DNA from: a virus
Direction: 5' to 3' (one strand)
Virus record (IMG/VR): IMGVR_UViG_3300025010_000002
Span: 1-64,000 of that record
Length of the DNA: 64,000 bases
How positions within the stretch are numbered: the first letter of the stretch is position 1; each line of letters opens with the position of its first letter. A model generated the notes under the pieces. The model saw nothing but the letters and a program-made list of their open reading frames with translations, was not told the DNA's origin and searched no databases. The translations under genes and the position numbers were made by a program. Shown one piece after another: positions 7,709 to 36,849 of the stretch.

Positions 7709-8626
7709 TTATATGATACTGTATGTTCTCAGATACTCAGAACAGGTATCATATAGAACCTTGTTTCCTTTGCACAGATCCTTCAGTATCTTAACGGAGT
7801 CACCCCTCTTGCTGGGTGCCTTCTTCATATCCTCAATGAACGAGATAAGACCCTTCTTGTACTCCTTGCTTGCCAACTTCTGCTCTGAGTATATGTTCTC
7901 GCAAGGCTCAATATCTAATCTAACCCTGTCTATATATGATACTACTCTGGATCCCTTATTTTCAACCCCAATAATATCAACTACTATCTCCCTCTGCTGG
8001 TCCTCAATACTGCTGGTGCACCTCATGAGAGACCCAGGACGAACAAGTATCTTACCTTTATGACTTACTGGTTCATAGCTATTGTGATCATGACCACACG
8101 CTATAACACCACAACCCTCTATGGCTTTGTAATCAACGTAATCTTCATCACTCTTGTAGTCACTATGCATGTACTTGTGCATAGCTGTAATGTCTGATTC
8201 AAGAGTAATCTTGTCTTGTGGTGCTCTGTCATAGTCAATACAGGATATCGTACTACCATAAGTTGTGGTGATGACACCGTGTTTAATGGCACCTGAGGAG
8301 AACAGAACACCTAGTGGTGTCTTAAATAGGGAGTCTGCTCTCCCATAGTATAGGTCGTGATTACCAGCCACAGAATAGAATAGTAGATCTTTATCCTCGT
8401 CTGCATGTTTCTTGAAGAAATCAATAACCTCAACAAGGAATGGGATGGATATGGTCTTCCTGTTGAATACGTCACCAGTGCACACAATGGCACTGCAGTT
8501 GTTCGTATGAGCTATGGAGTATACTTGGTCCAGCTTTGAGAACAACGTTCGTGTATAGTCATCCTTGCGCGATGCAGGGGCTTTCTGATCTATATGAAGG
8601 TCACCAATAATGGCTATTTTATCCAT
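7709..8626 (-). CDS. SbcD/Mre11-like recombination nuclease (T4 gp47-like)
   Basis: A 305-aa metallophosphoesterase with all core motifs in order: GDLHID (D9, H11), GDVFNR (D52), AGNHD (89-91) and GHDHN near residue 180, followed by a capping region. This is the nuclease subunit that works with an SbcC/Rad50-type ATPase in end resection and recombination-dependent replication. Its start overlaps the end of the C-terminal SbcC half by 8 bp, so the subunits are co-translated. Confidence 0.9.
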   Translation of the reverse strand: MDKIAIIGDLHIDQKAPASRKDDYTRTLFSKLDQVYSIAHTNNCSAIVCTGDVFNRKTISIPFLVEVIDFFKKHADEDKDLLFYSVAGNHDLYYGRADSLFKTPLGVLFSSGAIKHGVITTTYGSTISCIDYDRAPQDKITLESDITAMHKYMHSDYKSDEDYVDYKAIEGCGVIACGHDHNSYEPVSHKGKILVRPGSLMRCTSSIEDQQREIVVDIIGVENKGSRVVSYIDRVRLDIEPCENIYSEQKLASKEYKKGLISFIEDMKKAPSKRGDSVKILKDLCKGNKVLYDTCSEYLRTYSII

Positions 8627-9278
8627 TGCTAGCCTCTGTCTCTAGTAGAACTGCGTTACCCCAGGACATCTTGTACGCTCTGTTAGCATGCCCTATGTAT
8701 CTTGGATCCTGGCTAAGGAACAGTATGTCGAAACCCATCTCCTTTGAGAGAACCTCAAGGAAGCTAATTACATTGGGAACGTACTCCTCAGACATCTGAG
8801 ACAGTGACTCATCAAACACTATGAACCGCCTACGGCCCATTGAGCTAATTAGATAAACCCTTGTTATTAGGTCAATTATAGCACGTAGTGTTCCACCGTT
8901 CGCGTGGTCAATGTTTCTCCAGTCACACCACTCCCCATCAATTTCCCTTCGTGAAAGCATGGTTGCTTTCTTTGTTCTACCCCTGTTGTCAATCTCGATC
9001 TTGAACTCGTAGTTTCTGTCTACAAAGATAGTCTTTAGACCACGGTTAATCAACTCAGTGTACTGGCTTAAACCATATGTTGATAGGATACTGATGAACT
9101 CTTTTAGTATCTCCATGCTTGTGCCAAGTACTTTAAGGTCTGTCTCAAGTGTGCTTATGTTGCTGTCACATTCAGCAATGGACTCAACGAATGATTCAAT
9201 CGACTTAACTAAGGAATCTCTCTCCCCATCCAATCTGTTCACTGAATCAGATATAGCCTGGAGACGCTTACTCAACAT
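8619..9278 (-). CDS. SbcC/Rad50-like ATPase, C-terminal lobe as a separate protein
   Basis: The best start is the ATG at 9278, with GAGGG at 8 nt and an 11-bp overlap with the upstream gene. Earlier in-frame ATGs (9326, 9308) lack sites. The resulting 219-aa protein has a short coiled coil (1-60), a degenerate ABC signature (HANGGTLRAIIDL, ~125-137), Walker B RRFIVFDES with D156 and E157, and a switch region FLSQDPR where Gln replaces the usual His. It corresponds to the C-terminal third of SbcC/T4 gp46. The N-terminal lobe is encoded separately at 9939-11003. Confidence 0.8.
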   Translation of the reverse strand: MLSKRLQAISDSVNRLDGERDSLVKSIESFVESIAECDSNISTLETDLKVLGTSMEILKEFISILSTYGLSQYTELINRGLKTIFVDRNYEFKIEIDNRGRTKKATMLSRREIDGEWCDWRNIDHANGGTLRAIIDLITRVYLISSMGRRRFIVFDESLSQMSEEYVPNVISFLEVLSKEMGFDILFLSQDPRYIGHANRAYKMSWGNAVLLETEASNG

Positions 9279-9660
9279 AGATTGAGCCCTCACTGTACTT
9301 CGCAACATTTCCACTGAAGAACACAACCACAGGGAAAGCAGTTGAGGCTATAAAGTCAGCCTTGGCCCTGCTAACAACCCTAATGTAATAGCTGTAGTTC
9401 ATCTCTATGTTGTCAGCAATACTTGTTATAGTAGTGTTTAAATCATAGTCAAGCATGTTTATCTTCTTCATGAAGATGATCCGCTTGAACTCCTCACGAG
9501 TTAACACCTGCACAACACACATCCCATCGTCAGTCTTGGTAAGAAATAGATCAAGGCCCTTGTTACTGCACCAGATGTTTAGCTTAACAAACTTCTGGGA
9601 AGGACACTTTACACTTGCTATTGCGTCCTTAAGTGACTCGAACTTTCTTCTGACAACCAT
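9268..9660 (-). CDS. Hypothetical protein inserted between the SbcC halves
   Basis: A 130-aa alpha/beta protein of unknown family (MVVRRKFESLKDAIASV; 'DLFLTKTDDGMCVVQVL'; 'YYIRVVSRAKADFIA'). A strong site (agaggaag) precedes its ATG, and its start abuts the stop of the 87-aa coiled-coil gene. Its place inside the SbcCD operon suggests an accessory subunit of the nuclease. Nothing in the sequence shows catalytic activity. Confidence 0.6.
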   Translation of the reverse strand: MVVRRKFESLKDAIASVKCPSQKFVKLNIWCSNKGLDLFLTKTDDGMCVVQVLTREEFKRIIFMKKINMLDYDLNTTITSIADNIEMNYSYYIRVVSRAKADFIASTAFPVVVFFSGNVAKYSEGSIYVE

Positions 9661-9923
9661 TAGTCTTCCTCTTCACCGGCTATCTTGGCAGCAGCCTGTT
9701 TGAGGTTCTCCTCAAGAACTGCCATCCTAGCCTCAATCTTTTTCTTAAGATCCTCGTACTGCTTCTGGAGTGTCTCTGGGGATAAGCCAATACTGTTAAT
9801 CTCAGCATCAATGTCTTTCAGCTCTGCCTCAAGAGACTTCTTGCGTGTCTCGTACTCAACAGACTTACGCTTTAGCTCCTCGATGTTCTCACTGCACCTT
9901 AGGTAGCGTTCCTGTAAATTCAT
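9660..9923 (-). CDS. Small coiled-coil protein of the SbcCD operon
   Basis: An 87-aa, almost entirely helical and highly charged protein with heptad-like spacing (RCSENIEELKRKSVEYETRK; 'LQKQYEDLKKKIEARM') and an acidic tail (GEEED). It starts MNLQERYL with a taggag site. It lies immediately after the N-terminal SbcC half, which ends at the zinc hook. It may supply a coil segment that a normal one-chain SbcC would contain (inference). Alternatively it is a stand-alone phage coiled-coil protein. Confidence 0.65.
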   Translation of the reverse strand: MNLQERYLRCSENIEELKRKSVEYETRKKSLEAELKDIDAEINSIGLSPETLQKQYEDLKKKIEARMAVLEENLKQAAAKIAGEEED

Positions 9924-9938
9924 TTTATAGCTCCTAAT

Positions 9939-11003
9939 CTATTTTCCGCAGAATGGACATGTGTCAAATTCGCTCTTAACAGCTTCTTCCTCTTTGAGTT
10001 TAAACAAAGTATCCTCTAACTTGGAAGACATCGCTGATATAGTGACTAGCTTTACTTTTCTTAGTTGTAGTAATGATTCCATCTGTGCACATTTATCCAC
10101 ATCTGACTTGCTCACAACCAGCTTCACACTCGCAGCACTACAGTATTCCTCCAGCCTTTTAATGGAGTTTCTAAGATCCCTGGCTTTAAGTACCAATCTA
10201 TACTTTGAATCAATATTCTTTAACTCGTCAATATCCTCAACTACAACACCCTGCTTCTTAACAAAGAAACTAACTATCTTTGTACATGTTGCAGCCGTGT
10301 CAGTCATTGAGGAAAGCTTACCCTCAGTAGTAGTGTGTCTTTCCAATAAGCTACTCATTGTGTCAAGTCTGTCTACAGACATAGAGAGCTTGCTTACCTC
10401 ATTTTTTATGCTATCAATATCAGAGAACAACTGCAGCTTATCAGTGCTTGAAGCTACATACCCTGATAGCATCTCCTTCTTCATATACTCATTAGAGCAT
10501 GCTTTCTGAACTGCCTTTAGATCATCCCCAACCTTTTTGAGCATCTCCTGGTATTTCTCTCCAGAGAATATACTGGAGAGTATCTCGAACTTATGCGTGT
10601 CTGGGCGATTTACAACAAGGAACTGCTCCATCTGGTTCCAGAAGTTAAGGTAGAAATCACCCACACTTGTGGTTAGAGGGAGCAGTCCTTCCTCAACAAC
10701 ACCCTCAAAATCAGACTTCCCAAGCTTTCCGTATTCACCGCTTGGAAGAAGGTACTCTCCACCCTTACCCCTAGACTTCTTCCAAGCGAACTTAAAGTCA
10801 TCATTAAACTTTAGTGCTACGCTGCAACCGTTAACACCCTGCCTAATGAAGTCATCACCGAGCTTGTTGTATATCCCATACTGCATAGCTCTTACAACTG
10901 AGGACTTACCGTTATCGCCAGAACCAACCAGAAAGGTCAGACCATCTATATCAAGCCTGGTCTGACCGATGATTTGAAAGTCCTTGATGAATACTTTAAG
11001 CAC
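9939..11003 (-). CDS. SbcC/Rad50-like ATPase, N-terminal lobe ending at a zinc hook
   Basis: A 354-aa protein from a GTG start (ggag site; the start overlaps the recA-like stop). The N-terminal ATP-binding lobe has a Walker A GSGDNGKSS at 27-35 and the typical opening 'VFIKDFQIIGQTRLDID'. Residues ~150-345 are predicted coiled coil. The last residues are EFDTCPFCGK, so a Rad50-type CxxC zinc hook (C349, C352) lies at the very C-terminus, after which the chain stops. The return coil and the C-lobe are encoded in other genes downstream. This is an end-processing ATPase working with the nuclease at 7709-8626. Confidence 0.85.
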   Translation of the reverse strand: MLKVFIKDFQIIGQTRLDIDGLTFLVGSGDNGKSSVVRAMQYGIYNKLGDDFIRQGVNGCSVALKFNDDFKFAWKKSRGKGGEYLLPSGEYGKLGKSDFEGVVEEGLLPLTTSVGDFYLNFWNQMEQFLVVNRPDTHKFEILSSIFSGEKYQEMLKKVGDDLKAVQKACSNEYMKKEMLSGYVASSTDKLQLFSDIDSIKNEVSKLSMSVDRLDTMSSLLERHTTTEGKLSSMTDTAATCTKIVSFFVKKQGVVVEDIDELKNIDSKYRLVLKARDLRNSIKRLEEYCSAASVKLVVSKSDVDKCAQMESLLQLRKVKLVTISAMSSKLEDTLFKLKEEEAVKSEFDTCPFCGK

Positions 11004-12001
11004 TACTCTACTCCGTGCTTCTCTTTCAGCAGATCTAGAATCTTGTTCATGTTGTCATTAAAGTACTTGTACAAAGCAGTCCTACTCTTAAACTTAATGA
11101 TCTTGTCTTCAAGCAAGCAGTGCAGCTCGTAAAGCTTTTCGTCCTGCTTCAAGTACCCGAACTCAGTCAGTGCAGCTGTCAGTGACGCAAGTGGATCAAA
11201 GCCATGACCATAGATAATAGTTGACTCAACCTTCTTACGTGGTGCCGTCTTGTTCTTGTCAAAGATGAATGAAATGTCTGCACCATACACAGTTGTATCT
11301 GCGTGTGATAGCTGCTTCTTAACACGTAGTTCTACCTGAACATCAAGAGCGAACTTCAGTGACTTTGCCCCAGCTGCTTCCTCTGTACGAGCCCCAGGAG
11401 GAGCGAAGCCAAAGTTAAACTTGGCCCGCATCTGCTGGATCCACAGGATACCAATGTCACGACTACGCCACTGACTGTTGTACTTCATCTGAATATTTGA
11501 TGTCAGCCGTGACTTCAAACCTGGCTGGATATCCTGGATGTCACCGTCGCAAACCTGATCCGGTACAATGTCAGATTCGCTATCAATAACAATGAGTCCA
11601 AGATTCTCCATGTCCAGATATGCATCTGCCATGTTCTGGAAGTCCGTGTAAGTATGGACATCCTGGTGAAGAAAGAACAGGGTACCCTCATACTGAGTAA
11701 GACCGAAATTCTCAATCAATGACTCAACTAGAGAGTTCTCGAAGTCCATGTAGACCACAGCATAACCAGCGTCACAATATGCCTTACAGATGGCAAGGGC
11801 TACGTTTGTTTTACCAACACCCTCACGGCTGTATAACATAACCTGCTTGGCCATTGGGTAACCACCACCGAAGCCATCATTCAGTGCCTTGTCCGTCAAA
11901 GGAATACGTCTGCACTGTAGACGGGATGGGTACTTAGCAGCCATCTTCTTGTAGATATCAGCCCCACTCTTACTAATAGTGTCAGCACTCTTCTTTGCCA
12001 T
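11003..12001 (-). CDS. RecA/UvsX-like recombinase
   Basis: A 332-aa RecA-family strand-exchange protein. Walker A is SREGVGKTN (K64, T65), preceded by 'GYPMAKQVMLY'. Walker B is in 'LGLIVIDSESDIV' (about 133-145). A further conserved block is 'RDIGILWIQQMRAKFNFGFA'. It starts MAKKSADTISKSGAD with an aaggaga site. It is the first of a coupled set with the SbcCD genes, suited to recombination-primed replication and repair. Length is near T4 UvsX (about 390) and RecA (about 350). Confidence 0.9.
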   Translation of the reverse strand: MAKKSADTISKSGADIYKKMAAKYPSRLQCRRIPLTDKALNDGFGGGYPMAKQVMLYSREGVGKTNVALAICKAYCDAGYAVVYMDFENSLVESLIENFGLTQYEGTLFFLHQDVHTYTDFQNMADAYLDMENLGLIVIDSESDIVPDQVCDGDIQDIQPGLKSRLTSNIQMKYNSQWRSRDIGILWIQQMRAKFNFGFAPPGARTEEAAGAKSLKFALDVQVELRVKKQLSHADTTVYGADISFIFDKNKTAPRKKVESTIIYGHGFDPLASLTAALTEFGYLKQDEKLYELHCLLEDKIIKFKSRTALYKYFNDNMNKILDLLKEKHGVE

Positions 12002-12010
12002 AGTATCTCC

Positions 12011-12298
12011 TTACTTGGTGAACATCTCTTTCATGACTTTACCTGGACGGAATGAAACCTTTGAACGTGCTGGGATCTCAACTGATTCACCAGTCTTGGG
12101 GTTACGACCCTTACGAGCCTCATACTTCTTTACTTTGAATACACCAAAGTTACGGAACTCCAGGGTGTTGCCTTCTTTTAGATGCTCCATCATAAGTTCC
12201 ATGAAGCAATCAATAACCGCCAGAGTCTGAGACTTGTCTGCACTTAGCTTCTCTGCAACTGCGTCTGCTAATGTACGCTTCTGAACATTTTCTGCCAT
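12011..12298 (-). CDS. HU/IHF family DNA-binding protein
   Basis: A 95-aa protein with the standard HU/IHF architecture: an N-terminal helical dimerisation region (LADAVAEKLSADKSQTLAV), then the beta-arm sequence 'FRNFGVFKVKKYEARKGRNP' with the Pro at the arm tip, and 'KVSFRPGKVMKEMF' at the end. It bends DNA and could act in replication, recombination or packaging. A strong site (aaaggaga) precedes the ATG. It is transcribed between the ssDNA-binding-like gene and recA-like gene. Confidence 0.92.
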   Translation of the reverse strand: MAENVQKRTLADAVAEKLSADKSQTLAVIDCFMELMMEHLKEGNTLEFRNFGVFKVKKYEARKGRNPKTGESVEIPARSKVSFRPGKVMKEMFTK

Positions 12299-12328
12299 TG
12301 TATTCTCCTTTGGTACAGTAGTACCGTT

Positions 12329-13378
12329 TTATTCCTCAAAGAACTCTTCAAGCTTCTTGGGTGCTTCTTCCTTTACAACCTCTTCAGCAAGGGCCATCTG
12401 TGGCTCGCCATGGTCACCGCTTGTACTAGCCTTGGACCACTCCTGAACCTCATCCCAATAACCCTCACAAGCCTCAATTACTTCCTTGCCAACAAATGCT
12501 TTCTTACCAATCTCCACAGCGTCAAACTTCTCAGGCAATGCCAATGCCGGTGAGGTTGCATACTTGTTGTACTCCTCAGAGATCTTGACACGCTCACCTG
12601 GCTTCAGTGGGCACCAGAAACAGTATGGTGCAAACTTGCGGCTAAACTTGCGCTCAAGTGTACGACGAAGATTTGTGTCATAGCTACTCACAGCCGACTG
12701 CAGTGTACGACCCTTAATGCCTGATACAGTGATCATCAAAGGACCATACTTCCACAGATCCTCGTTCTTAACAAGAACGACATAGCGGGTACGACCACGG
12801 AGATTCTTCTTACCAGCATCCTTGATACCCTCGTCGTAGCTCTTGTAGAAGGTGCGCTTGTCCCCACCCTTTGAGAACCAGTCAAGACGGTAGCCAATGA
12901 TTGACACCATAATCTTCGGGAAGCCTAGACCAACCTGACTGCTACCATTGTCGAACGTGATCTTATTGAGCTTACGTGATGGAGTAAAGCCGAAGGGGAA
13001 CTGTTCCTCAGGCAGAAAGAAACCTCCTAGATTCTGAAACGAACCCATAGCAGCCTTAGGATCTGGCTCAACCCACTGCATGAACTTGTACAAAGGACCC
13101 TGGCCAGCGGACAGATCATGTGCCTCGTTAGTCTGTGCGCCAAGGAAGTTCAGATCCTCTACATCATCAGACACCACAGGCTTAGCCTTAGGTGCAGGAG
13201 CAGCTGGCTTCTTTGTAGCTGCAGCGACAAAAGCATCCTGCTCTTCCTCCTCTTCTTCAACAACTTCTTCCTTAGGAGCAGCCTTTACCGGAGCAGCTTT
13301 CTTAACTGCCTTAGGAGCTGGCTTCTCCTCCACCTCATCACTTGAACCAAAAATGTCCTCATAACTTTCTTCTGCCAT
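12329..13378 (-). CDS. Probable ssDNA-binding protein
   Basis: A 349-aa protein with a very acidic/Ala-Pro-Lys-rich N-terminus (EEVVEEEEEEQDAF), a globular core at ~75-290 containing 'LGFPKIMVSIIGYRLDWF' and 'RYVVLVKNEDLWKYGPLMIT' (OB-fold-like strands), and a C-terminal acidic/aromatic tip (KKLEEFFEE). An acidic C-terminal tip is typical of SSB and gp32-type proteins, and the gene lies beside HU and RecA-like genes. No other SSB is visible in the window. The assignment is by context and architecture rather than a recognised signature. An aaaggaga site precedes the start. Confidence 0.6.
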   Translation of the reverse strand: MAEESYEDIFGSSDEVEEKPAPKAVKKAAPVKAAPKEEVVEEEEEEQDAFVAAATKKPAAPAPKAKPVVSDDVEDLNFLGAQTNEAHDLSAGQGPLYKFMQWVEPDPKAAMGSFQNLGGFFLPEEQFPFGFTPSRKLNKITFDNGSSQVGLGFPKIMVSIIGYRLDWFSKGGDKRTFYKSYDEGIKDAGKKNLRGRTRYVVLVKNEDLWKYGPLMITVSGIKGRTLQSAVSSYDTNLRRTLERKFSRKFAPYCFWCPLKPGERVKISEEYNKYATSPALALPEKFDAVEIGKKAFVGKEVIEACEGYWDEVQEWSKASTSGDHGEPQMALAEEVVKEEAPKKLEEFFEE

Positions 13379-18308: not shown

Positions 18309-18396
18309 GGACGATTCGGCTAGTGGTGATGCCGCCTGACTGTAAATCAGGTGCCTTGCGCTAAACTCGGTGGTTCAAATCCATCATCGTCCACCA
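18309..18396 (+). tRNA. tRNA-Tyr (GTA)
   Basis: Acceptor stem GGACGAT/ATCGTCC, anticodon stem CCTGA/TCAGG around loop CTGTAAA (anticodon GTA), long variable arm as expected for class II tRNA-Tyr, T-arm with GGTTCAAATCC, and an encoded CCA end. Length 88 nt. Confidence 0.95.
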
Positions 18397-18416
18397 TAAT
18401 TTACTAGGAGATTCTT

Positions 18417-18638
18417 ATGGACTACACTGAATACAATGTTGAAATGATGGATGATTGTATTTCAATGGTAGAGCTTAGAGACAACTGTGTGCTAACAAAC
18501 AAGAAAGCATTATACGGTTGGATTAGACAATTTAAGGACACTAAGGTTAATGAAATTTATTGGGTTAAAAAGCTAAGAAACAATACTACAGGAGAGACTA
18601 CTTTTGCTAGGGTTAACTATGAAAGTATTGCTCAATGA
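18417..18638 (+). CDS. Small hypothetical protein
   Basis: A 73-aa protein (MDYTEYNVEMMDDCISMVEL) with a ctaggaga site. It ends 'TTGETTFARVNYESIAQ'. The family is not recognised. It overlaps the next gene by ATGA and lies between two tRNA genes in an early-type cluster. Confidence 0.55.
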   Translation: MDYTEYNVEMMDDCISMVELRDNCVLTNKKALYGWIRQFKDTKVNEIYWVKKLRNNTTGETTFARVNYESIAQ

Positions 18639-18886
18639 GTAAGAAATGTCCTCAGTGCGGAAGTAGTCATTACATTACTACATTGATGGGTTTTATTAAC
18701 TGTAGAAACGAGAACGATGTTAACTGTTGTGACTGTGGGTGGTCTGGTAAAGCGTATGAGCTAAAGCTAGACGATGACTTACTATGCACATGCTCAACTG
18801 GTTCTTGCAACAAGCATGGCAGATCTATTAGATCAGAGGTAAGACGAGAGCTGGATGAGTCATGGCAGAGAATGATAGGTGGTTAA
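18635..18886 (+). CDS. Small zinc-finger protein
   Basis: An 83-aa protein with a zinc ribbon: 'KKCPQCGSSHYITTL', then 'NCCDCGWSGKAYEL' giving CPxCG and CxDCGW knuckles, plus a further Cys cluster 'LLCTCSTGSCNKHG'. It is coupled to the preceding gene by overlapping stop and start. It is probably a nucleic-acid or protein-interaction module; the function is unknown. Confidence 0.6.
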   Translation: MSKKCPQCGSSHYITTLMGFINCRNENDVNCCDCGWSGKAYELKLDDDLLCTCSTGSCNKHGRSIRSEVRRELDESWQRMIGG

Positions 18887-18891
18887 ATAAT

Positions 18892-18964
18892 GACTTGGTA
18901 GTGTAACCTGGTAACACACCAGTCTCCAACACTGGTAATCTGAGTCCAAATCTCAGCCGAGTCG
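18892..18964 (+). tRNA. tRNA-Trp (CCA)
   Basis: Acceptor GACTTGG/CCGAGTC, D-arm GTGT/ACAC with CTGGTA loop, anticodon stem CCAGT/ACTGG around CTCCAAC (anticodon CCA), T-stem CTGAG/CTCAG, and discriminator G as expected for Trp. The CCA end is not encoded (followed by cattt), so it must be added by an enzyme. Confidence 0.93.
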
Positions 18965-18983
18965 CATTTAAAAGGAACTGTTT

Positions 18984-36772: not shown

Positions 36773-36849
36773 TACGGGATAGTTTAATTTGGTAAAACGT
36801 CGGTCTCATACGCCGAAGACTCTGGATTCGATTTCCAGTCCCGTTACCA
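36773..36849 (+). tRNA. tRNA-Met (CAT)
   Basis: Acceptor TACGGGA/TCCCGTT (with a T1:T72 mismatch), D-arm GTTT/AAAC, anticodon stem TCGGT/GCCGA around CTCATAC (anticodon CAT), T-arm CTGGA-TTCGATT-TCCAG, discriminator A and encoded CCA. Length 77 nt. A CAT anticodon could also serve as tRNA-Ile2 if modified to lysidine. Confidence 0.9.

Follow-up and report, generated by a model that had tools for sequence, protein, structure and literature searches.

Textbook Rad50 is one chain, its two coils meeting at the hook. The described systems most like the locus reported here (Mre11-Rad50, SbcCD, and gp46/gp47 of T4) share with it an N-lobe Walker A, a CxxC hook, a C-lobe Walker B and an Mre11/SbcD partner. 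Mre11/Rad50 fusions were described by Yoshida et al. 2011 (PMC3175470), who remarked that one P-loop NTPase segment is missing from those of Anaerostipes and of Bacillus phage 0305phi8-36. An archaeal herA-mre11-rad50-nurA operon is described in a review (PMC8708640), according to which nurA-herA of D. radiodurans is not clustered with mre11-rad50. A precedent for separate lobes is the catalytic domain of P. furiosus Rad50, crystallised as N and C chains (1f2t_A/B, 1ii8_A/B), although these constructs (1F2T, 1II8) are engineered and lack the natural arm, the hook and the small helical chain called CC below.

The best explanation of our phage locus, and one we consider very probable, is that it encodes a three-chain Rad50/SbcC working with SbcD. 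Unlike Rad50/SbcC, the split set consists of three chains broken at the hook (N, CC and C), of which CC is extra, with almost no return coil, and in Bacillota its arm is built of repeats. N, CC and C of Bacillota phages correspond to PHROG 16465 ('exonuclease'), 18563 (unknown) and 15167 ('ATPase'), which PHROGs treats as unconnected families. No published description of a split SbcC/Rad50 was found in the freely accessible literature searched; this is apparently an undescribed, widespread variant of Mre11-Rad50.

The window locus

The window is a stretch of 64,000 nucleotides (positions 1 to 64,000 of IMG/VR record IMGVR_UViG_3300025010_000002). The minus-strand genes of the locus overlap or almost touch (Table 1), and a primase-like gene lies with them on this strand. 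The RecA-like, an HU-like (12011-12298) and an SSB-looking acidic-tailed protein (12329-13378) are encoded in a single run at 11003-13378, upstream of split rad50. The tRNA genes of the whole 139.6-kb genome number just three (for Tyr, Trp and Met), at 18309-18965 and 36773-36849.

Table 1. Features of the split rad50 locus in the window
Feature	Position	Strand	Remarks
RecA/UvsX-type recombinase	11003..12001	-	Directly upstream of the N-lobe gene
N, N-lobe chain of Rad50/SbcC	9939..11003	-	Walker A, Q-loop, helical arm, C-terminal CPFC zinc hook
CC, helical chain, 87 aa	9660..9923	-	Separate gene in relatives too
130-aa ORF between CC and C	9268..9660	-	No family match; related loci lack a homologue
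C, C-lobe chain of Rad50/SbcC	8619..9278	-	83-residue helix, signature GG, Walker B DE, D-loop
SbcD/Mre11-type nuclease (predicted)	7709..8626	-	Metallophos E=5.7e-14; four metal motifs

The N chain (354 aa) starts at a GTG that overlaps the stop of the recA-like gene, has a Rad50-like N-lobe with Walker A GSGDNGKS at residue 27, and ends ...DTCPFCGK*, two residues past the CxxC zinc hook at the tip of its arm. A profile of N built from 19 relatives has archaeal Rad50 N-lobes as top matches (5f3w, E=1.1e-14), and its last 54 columns match the Rad50 hook structure 6zff (E=0.003). For a relative's N modelled with AF2 (pLDDT 71), the best PDB matches are Rad50 lobes; the arm in this model is of low confidence (pTM 0.34).

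The C chain has 219 aa from its ATG, or 235 aa if a TTG is used. Its Walker B is FIVFDE, its long helix is seen in the AF2 model, and its signature is degenerate with the GG retained. In the H-loop, Gln replaces the switch His (SQ for TH), which makes the window C-lobe the odd one among its relatives and could alter hydrolysis; with this loss and the degenerate signature, activity of the window complex is not certain. The C profile matches the Rad50 C-lobe 3qkr_B (E=7.5e-12), and the AF2 model of the window C (pLDDT 79, pTM 0.63) has the Rad50 lobes 9a9j_B and 1ii8_B as best PDB matches. The partner gene alongside these lobes retains the four SbcD metal motifs (DLH, GDVF, GNHD and GHDH). Comparisons of sequence, profile and fold show N and C to be lobes of Rad50 and SbcD to resemble Mre11.

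The window also has the combination that marks the PHROG 16465/18563/15167 set, namely an N ending at the hook, a CC with a G-V-x-P motif, and a stand-alone C-lobe. N (E=9.8e-15) and C (E=3.1e-12) match PHROGs; CC, which alone does not match 18563, is matched by alignment-based profile only.

Relatives in phages, prophages and plasmids

The window proteins are very divergent, at 17-25% identity to relatives. Searches by tblastn with both lobes matched the same few phage records, each containing N and C. In LR745208, a 485 kb phage, the N gene stops just past CPVCG and is followed, over 7 kb, by SbcD, CC (94 aa), the gene for a sliding clamp, and C (211 aa). The Tunturiibacter phage Tunturi_5 keeps UvsX, N, CC and SbcD together with C ~109 kb away, and in Magritte too the N and C genes are far apart. 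In Bacillus phage vB_BboS-125 an AP2 gene stands between N and the CC and C genes, and SbcD lies further on. The same piece order is shared by ~30 Bacillota prophage or viral contigs, and the three-piece set is also found on plasmids. Linkage to recA, as in the window, is common to other phages and many chromosomal loci. Hook-ended N, CC and C recur in phages, prophages, plasmids and chromosomes; the arrangement is not peculiar to the window phage. In a C-lobe tree the prophage C-lobes form one clade, and the window falls with LR745208 and locus L043 (98/88), on a very long branch whose placing is unsure.

Chromosomal systems and fusions

Two samples were used, one of 400 genomes within the Brevibacillus fulvus class and one of 399 within its phylum. 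The C-lobe was present in 49 of the former, never within a long frame, and in 66 of the latter. NCBIfam models match chromosomal N at Rad50 positions 4-463 of 878 and chromosomal C at 669-880 of 883 in another Rad50 model; the missing part is therefore the stretch between them.

Twelve recA-linked chromosomal loci carry sbcD-N-CC-C and rny, and many loci have the order recA-(recX)-sbcD-N-CC-C-rny-ymdB-spoVS. Six Bacillota loci (L066, L069, L098, L103, L111 and L115) read nurA-herA-sbcD-N-CC-C, with nurA and herA confirmed by Pfam. They resemble the archaeal operon in having nurA-herA-sbcD beside the Rad50 lobes, but they are bacterial and have Rad50 in three genes: an archaeal-type end-resection operon in bacteria.

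Fusions of SbcD to N occur on an Aneurinibacillus plasmid (937 aa) and on P. polymyxa SC2 plasmid pSC2 (841 aa), with CC and C separate. SbcD ahead of the Rad50 N-lobe in one chain is also the arrangement in PMC3175470, whose consulted passages report neither the lost lobe as a separate gene nor CC. Three genomes have an armless single-chain SbcD-N-C of 684-700 aa with no hook and no CC. An apparent CC-C fusion in one genome (G464, open-frame length 311) is actually two ORFs. Comparative genomics shows N, CC, C and SbcD occurring together, often beside recA or nurA-herA and sometimes fused. The earlier view that the pieces belong to one SbcCD-type complex is supported, and both kinds of fusion argue that they form one machine.

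Of 65 split genomes 2 had canonical SbcC (TIGR00618), against 30 among 65 other genomes from that sample (Fisher p=5e-9, a value that ignores kinship, the genomes not being phylogenetically independent). TIGR00618 was chosen over PF13558 because PF13558 matches in split genomes, of which 6 of 7 were checked, were hookless SMC-type proteins and were rejected as canonical SbcC. Common on chromosomes in the phylum of Brevibacillus, the split system largely replaces one-piece SbcC there. The plasmid SbcD-N fusions are annotated 'metallophosphoesterase', and their CC and C 'hypothetical protein'; in many genomes counted as SbcCD-negative the system is therefore present, named 'hypothetical protein', 'ATPase' or 'metallophosphoesterase'.

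Hook, arm and CC

Among 42 hook-bearing N proteins measured, the C-terminus lies 2-44 aa (median 10) beyond the CxxC, so the end at the hook is not chance. Prophage N proteins (L011-L041) have His/Cys-rich tails beyond the hook (CPLCEQAVAHTH, CPLCESPMSFEHSH, CPLCEQTHKGGGC), which are possible extra zinc ligands.

Neither the window nor its relatives showed one polypeptide in which two antiparallel coils of matching length flank the hook; they have three chains. The arms of 44 N proteins are self-similar at lags of 47 (combined z=33) and 94 residues (z=24), and arm lengths cluster in steps of ~47 residues. The signal is a 47-residue tandem repeat located in the prophage and chromosomal arms; phage arms have periods of 44, 47 or 38, and the short arm of the window itself gave no clear period. 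The lag-47 repeat was absent from 12 control coils of SMC-type proteins. Being a tandem repeat, the Bacillota N 'coil' makes an unusual arm.

CC is a separate gene adjoining C in 60 of 65 rechecked C-positive genomes; of the other five, three are the armless fusions, one lies at a contig end, and one is a very divergent case that has a CC-like ORF. The length of CC stays within 75-97 aa while the distance from Q-loop to hook spans 228 to 375, and it carries a conserved helix break, [GNS]-[VIL]-x-P-x-x-[IL] (the G-V-x-P motif). Magritte and a relative have a hookless N, and no CC gene was found in either; a hook-bearing close relative has one. CC is tied to hook or arm, present with the hook and absent in both hookless groups, which are two independent losses only.

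The preliminary description envisaged a complex of four to five subunits. Three SbcC chains plus SbcD are likely, but the 130-aa protein is not conserved: it has no family match and no homologue in related loci, was rejected as a subunit for that reason, and probably stands outside the complex. Elsewhere its slot holds a sliding clamp gene, an AP2-domain gene or nothing. The clamp between CC and C is full in both LR745208 and L043.

Interpretation

The break at the hook had earlier been read as a genuine split, open to challenge by a sequencing frameshift or by relatives with one continuous chain. The ORFs lie as then described. One reading frame holds N, CC and C but not the 130-aa gene, and between N and CC there are only a TAG and five codons in frame (15 nt), as might suit a sequencing or assembly error or a decaying SbcC pseudogene. 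Against this, the region is 100% identical in a second IMG/VR record of 96.7 kb (perhaps not an independent sample), CC has an ATG start and a strong Shine-Dalgarno of its own (AGGAG, 7 nt upstream), SbcD metal motifs and Walker motifs are intact, and dozens of divergent loci are broken at the hook likewise. Neither challenge, when tried, refuted the split. Since the architecture is conserved, error or decay is already refuted, and its probability is negligible. The common frame and short spacer would also allow read-through or recoding of the TAG, which would fuse N to CC and leave Rad50 with two chains. Read-through is made unlikely by the whole 139.6-kb genome, in which no suppressor tRNA was found, and relatives encode N and CC in separate genes that use other frames, overlap or lie kilobases from each other; we think a fusion very unlikely.

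The distance between N and C in Magritte and Tunturi_5 might indicate two functionally unrelated proteins, one a hook-bearing ATPase half that stands alone and the other an ATPase in its own right, but each half is without motifs that an ABC ATPase needs, phage records from the lobe searches having either lobe have both, and armless SbcD-N-C fusions exist, so that this is extremely improbable. Little more weight goes to a defence or counter-defence ATPase set in place of a recombination complex: the N-lobe does match several SMC-like defence ATPases (e.g. LmuB, in PADLOC), but such matches reflect the shared N-lobe fold, the window C-lobe and SbcD have no PADLOC defence match, CC has coil-type matches only, and the linkage is to recA, nurA and herA. 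The preliminary description also allowed for a second coil supplied in trans, which would make CC its distal half and the arm a normal two-stranded Rad50 coil in pieces. The sizes roughly fit in the window, where CC (87) plus the C-lobe helix (83) approach the N arm (about 180 residues), and CC is lost wherever arm or hook is lost. It is not simply so, given the narrow length range of CC beside an arm that varies, its conserved helix break, and a Bacillota arm repeat foreign to the SMC-type control coils. Because the arm is repeat-built and CC length does not follow arm length, we doubt a simple divided coil and regard it as possible but rather unlikely.

A three-chain Rad50 acting with SbcD in end processing for RecA is most likely, and we infer its assembly and the role of CC as follows. 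Each ATPase head would take its Walker A/Q-loop half from N, which would also bring the arm and zinc hook, and its signature/Walker B half from C, which would add the proximal return helix. CC would be the third chain, small, helical and linked to the arm that bears the hook. N and C would pair in trans to make one ABC half-site, and two half-sites would dimerise with ATP. The hook would join two N chains through zinc, and CC may pack on the distal arm or hook, replacing the missing strand. The complex with SbcD would then process DNA ends for the adjacently encoded recombinase. Tentatively, with somewhat less than even confidence, we suggest an ancient alternative Mre11-Rad50 of phages and a large part of Bacillota, in which the three-chain Rad50 has a self-supporting arm of ~47-residue helical repeats and CC replaces the return strand at the hook. 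The natural break at the hook makes the role of hook and arm directly testable, the pieces being removable singly, and natural hookless and armless forms serve as comparison.

More divergent sets were seen at L046:7147-10246 and L101:6818-7751, where the CC-like ORFs have a turn of the 'G-[TV]-S' type, not G-V-x-P. In L046 the hook is present, CC is only a divergent candidate, and the slot between CC and C holds an unrelated 134-aa ORF. These two sets hint at a split family wider than the reach of our profiles.
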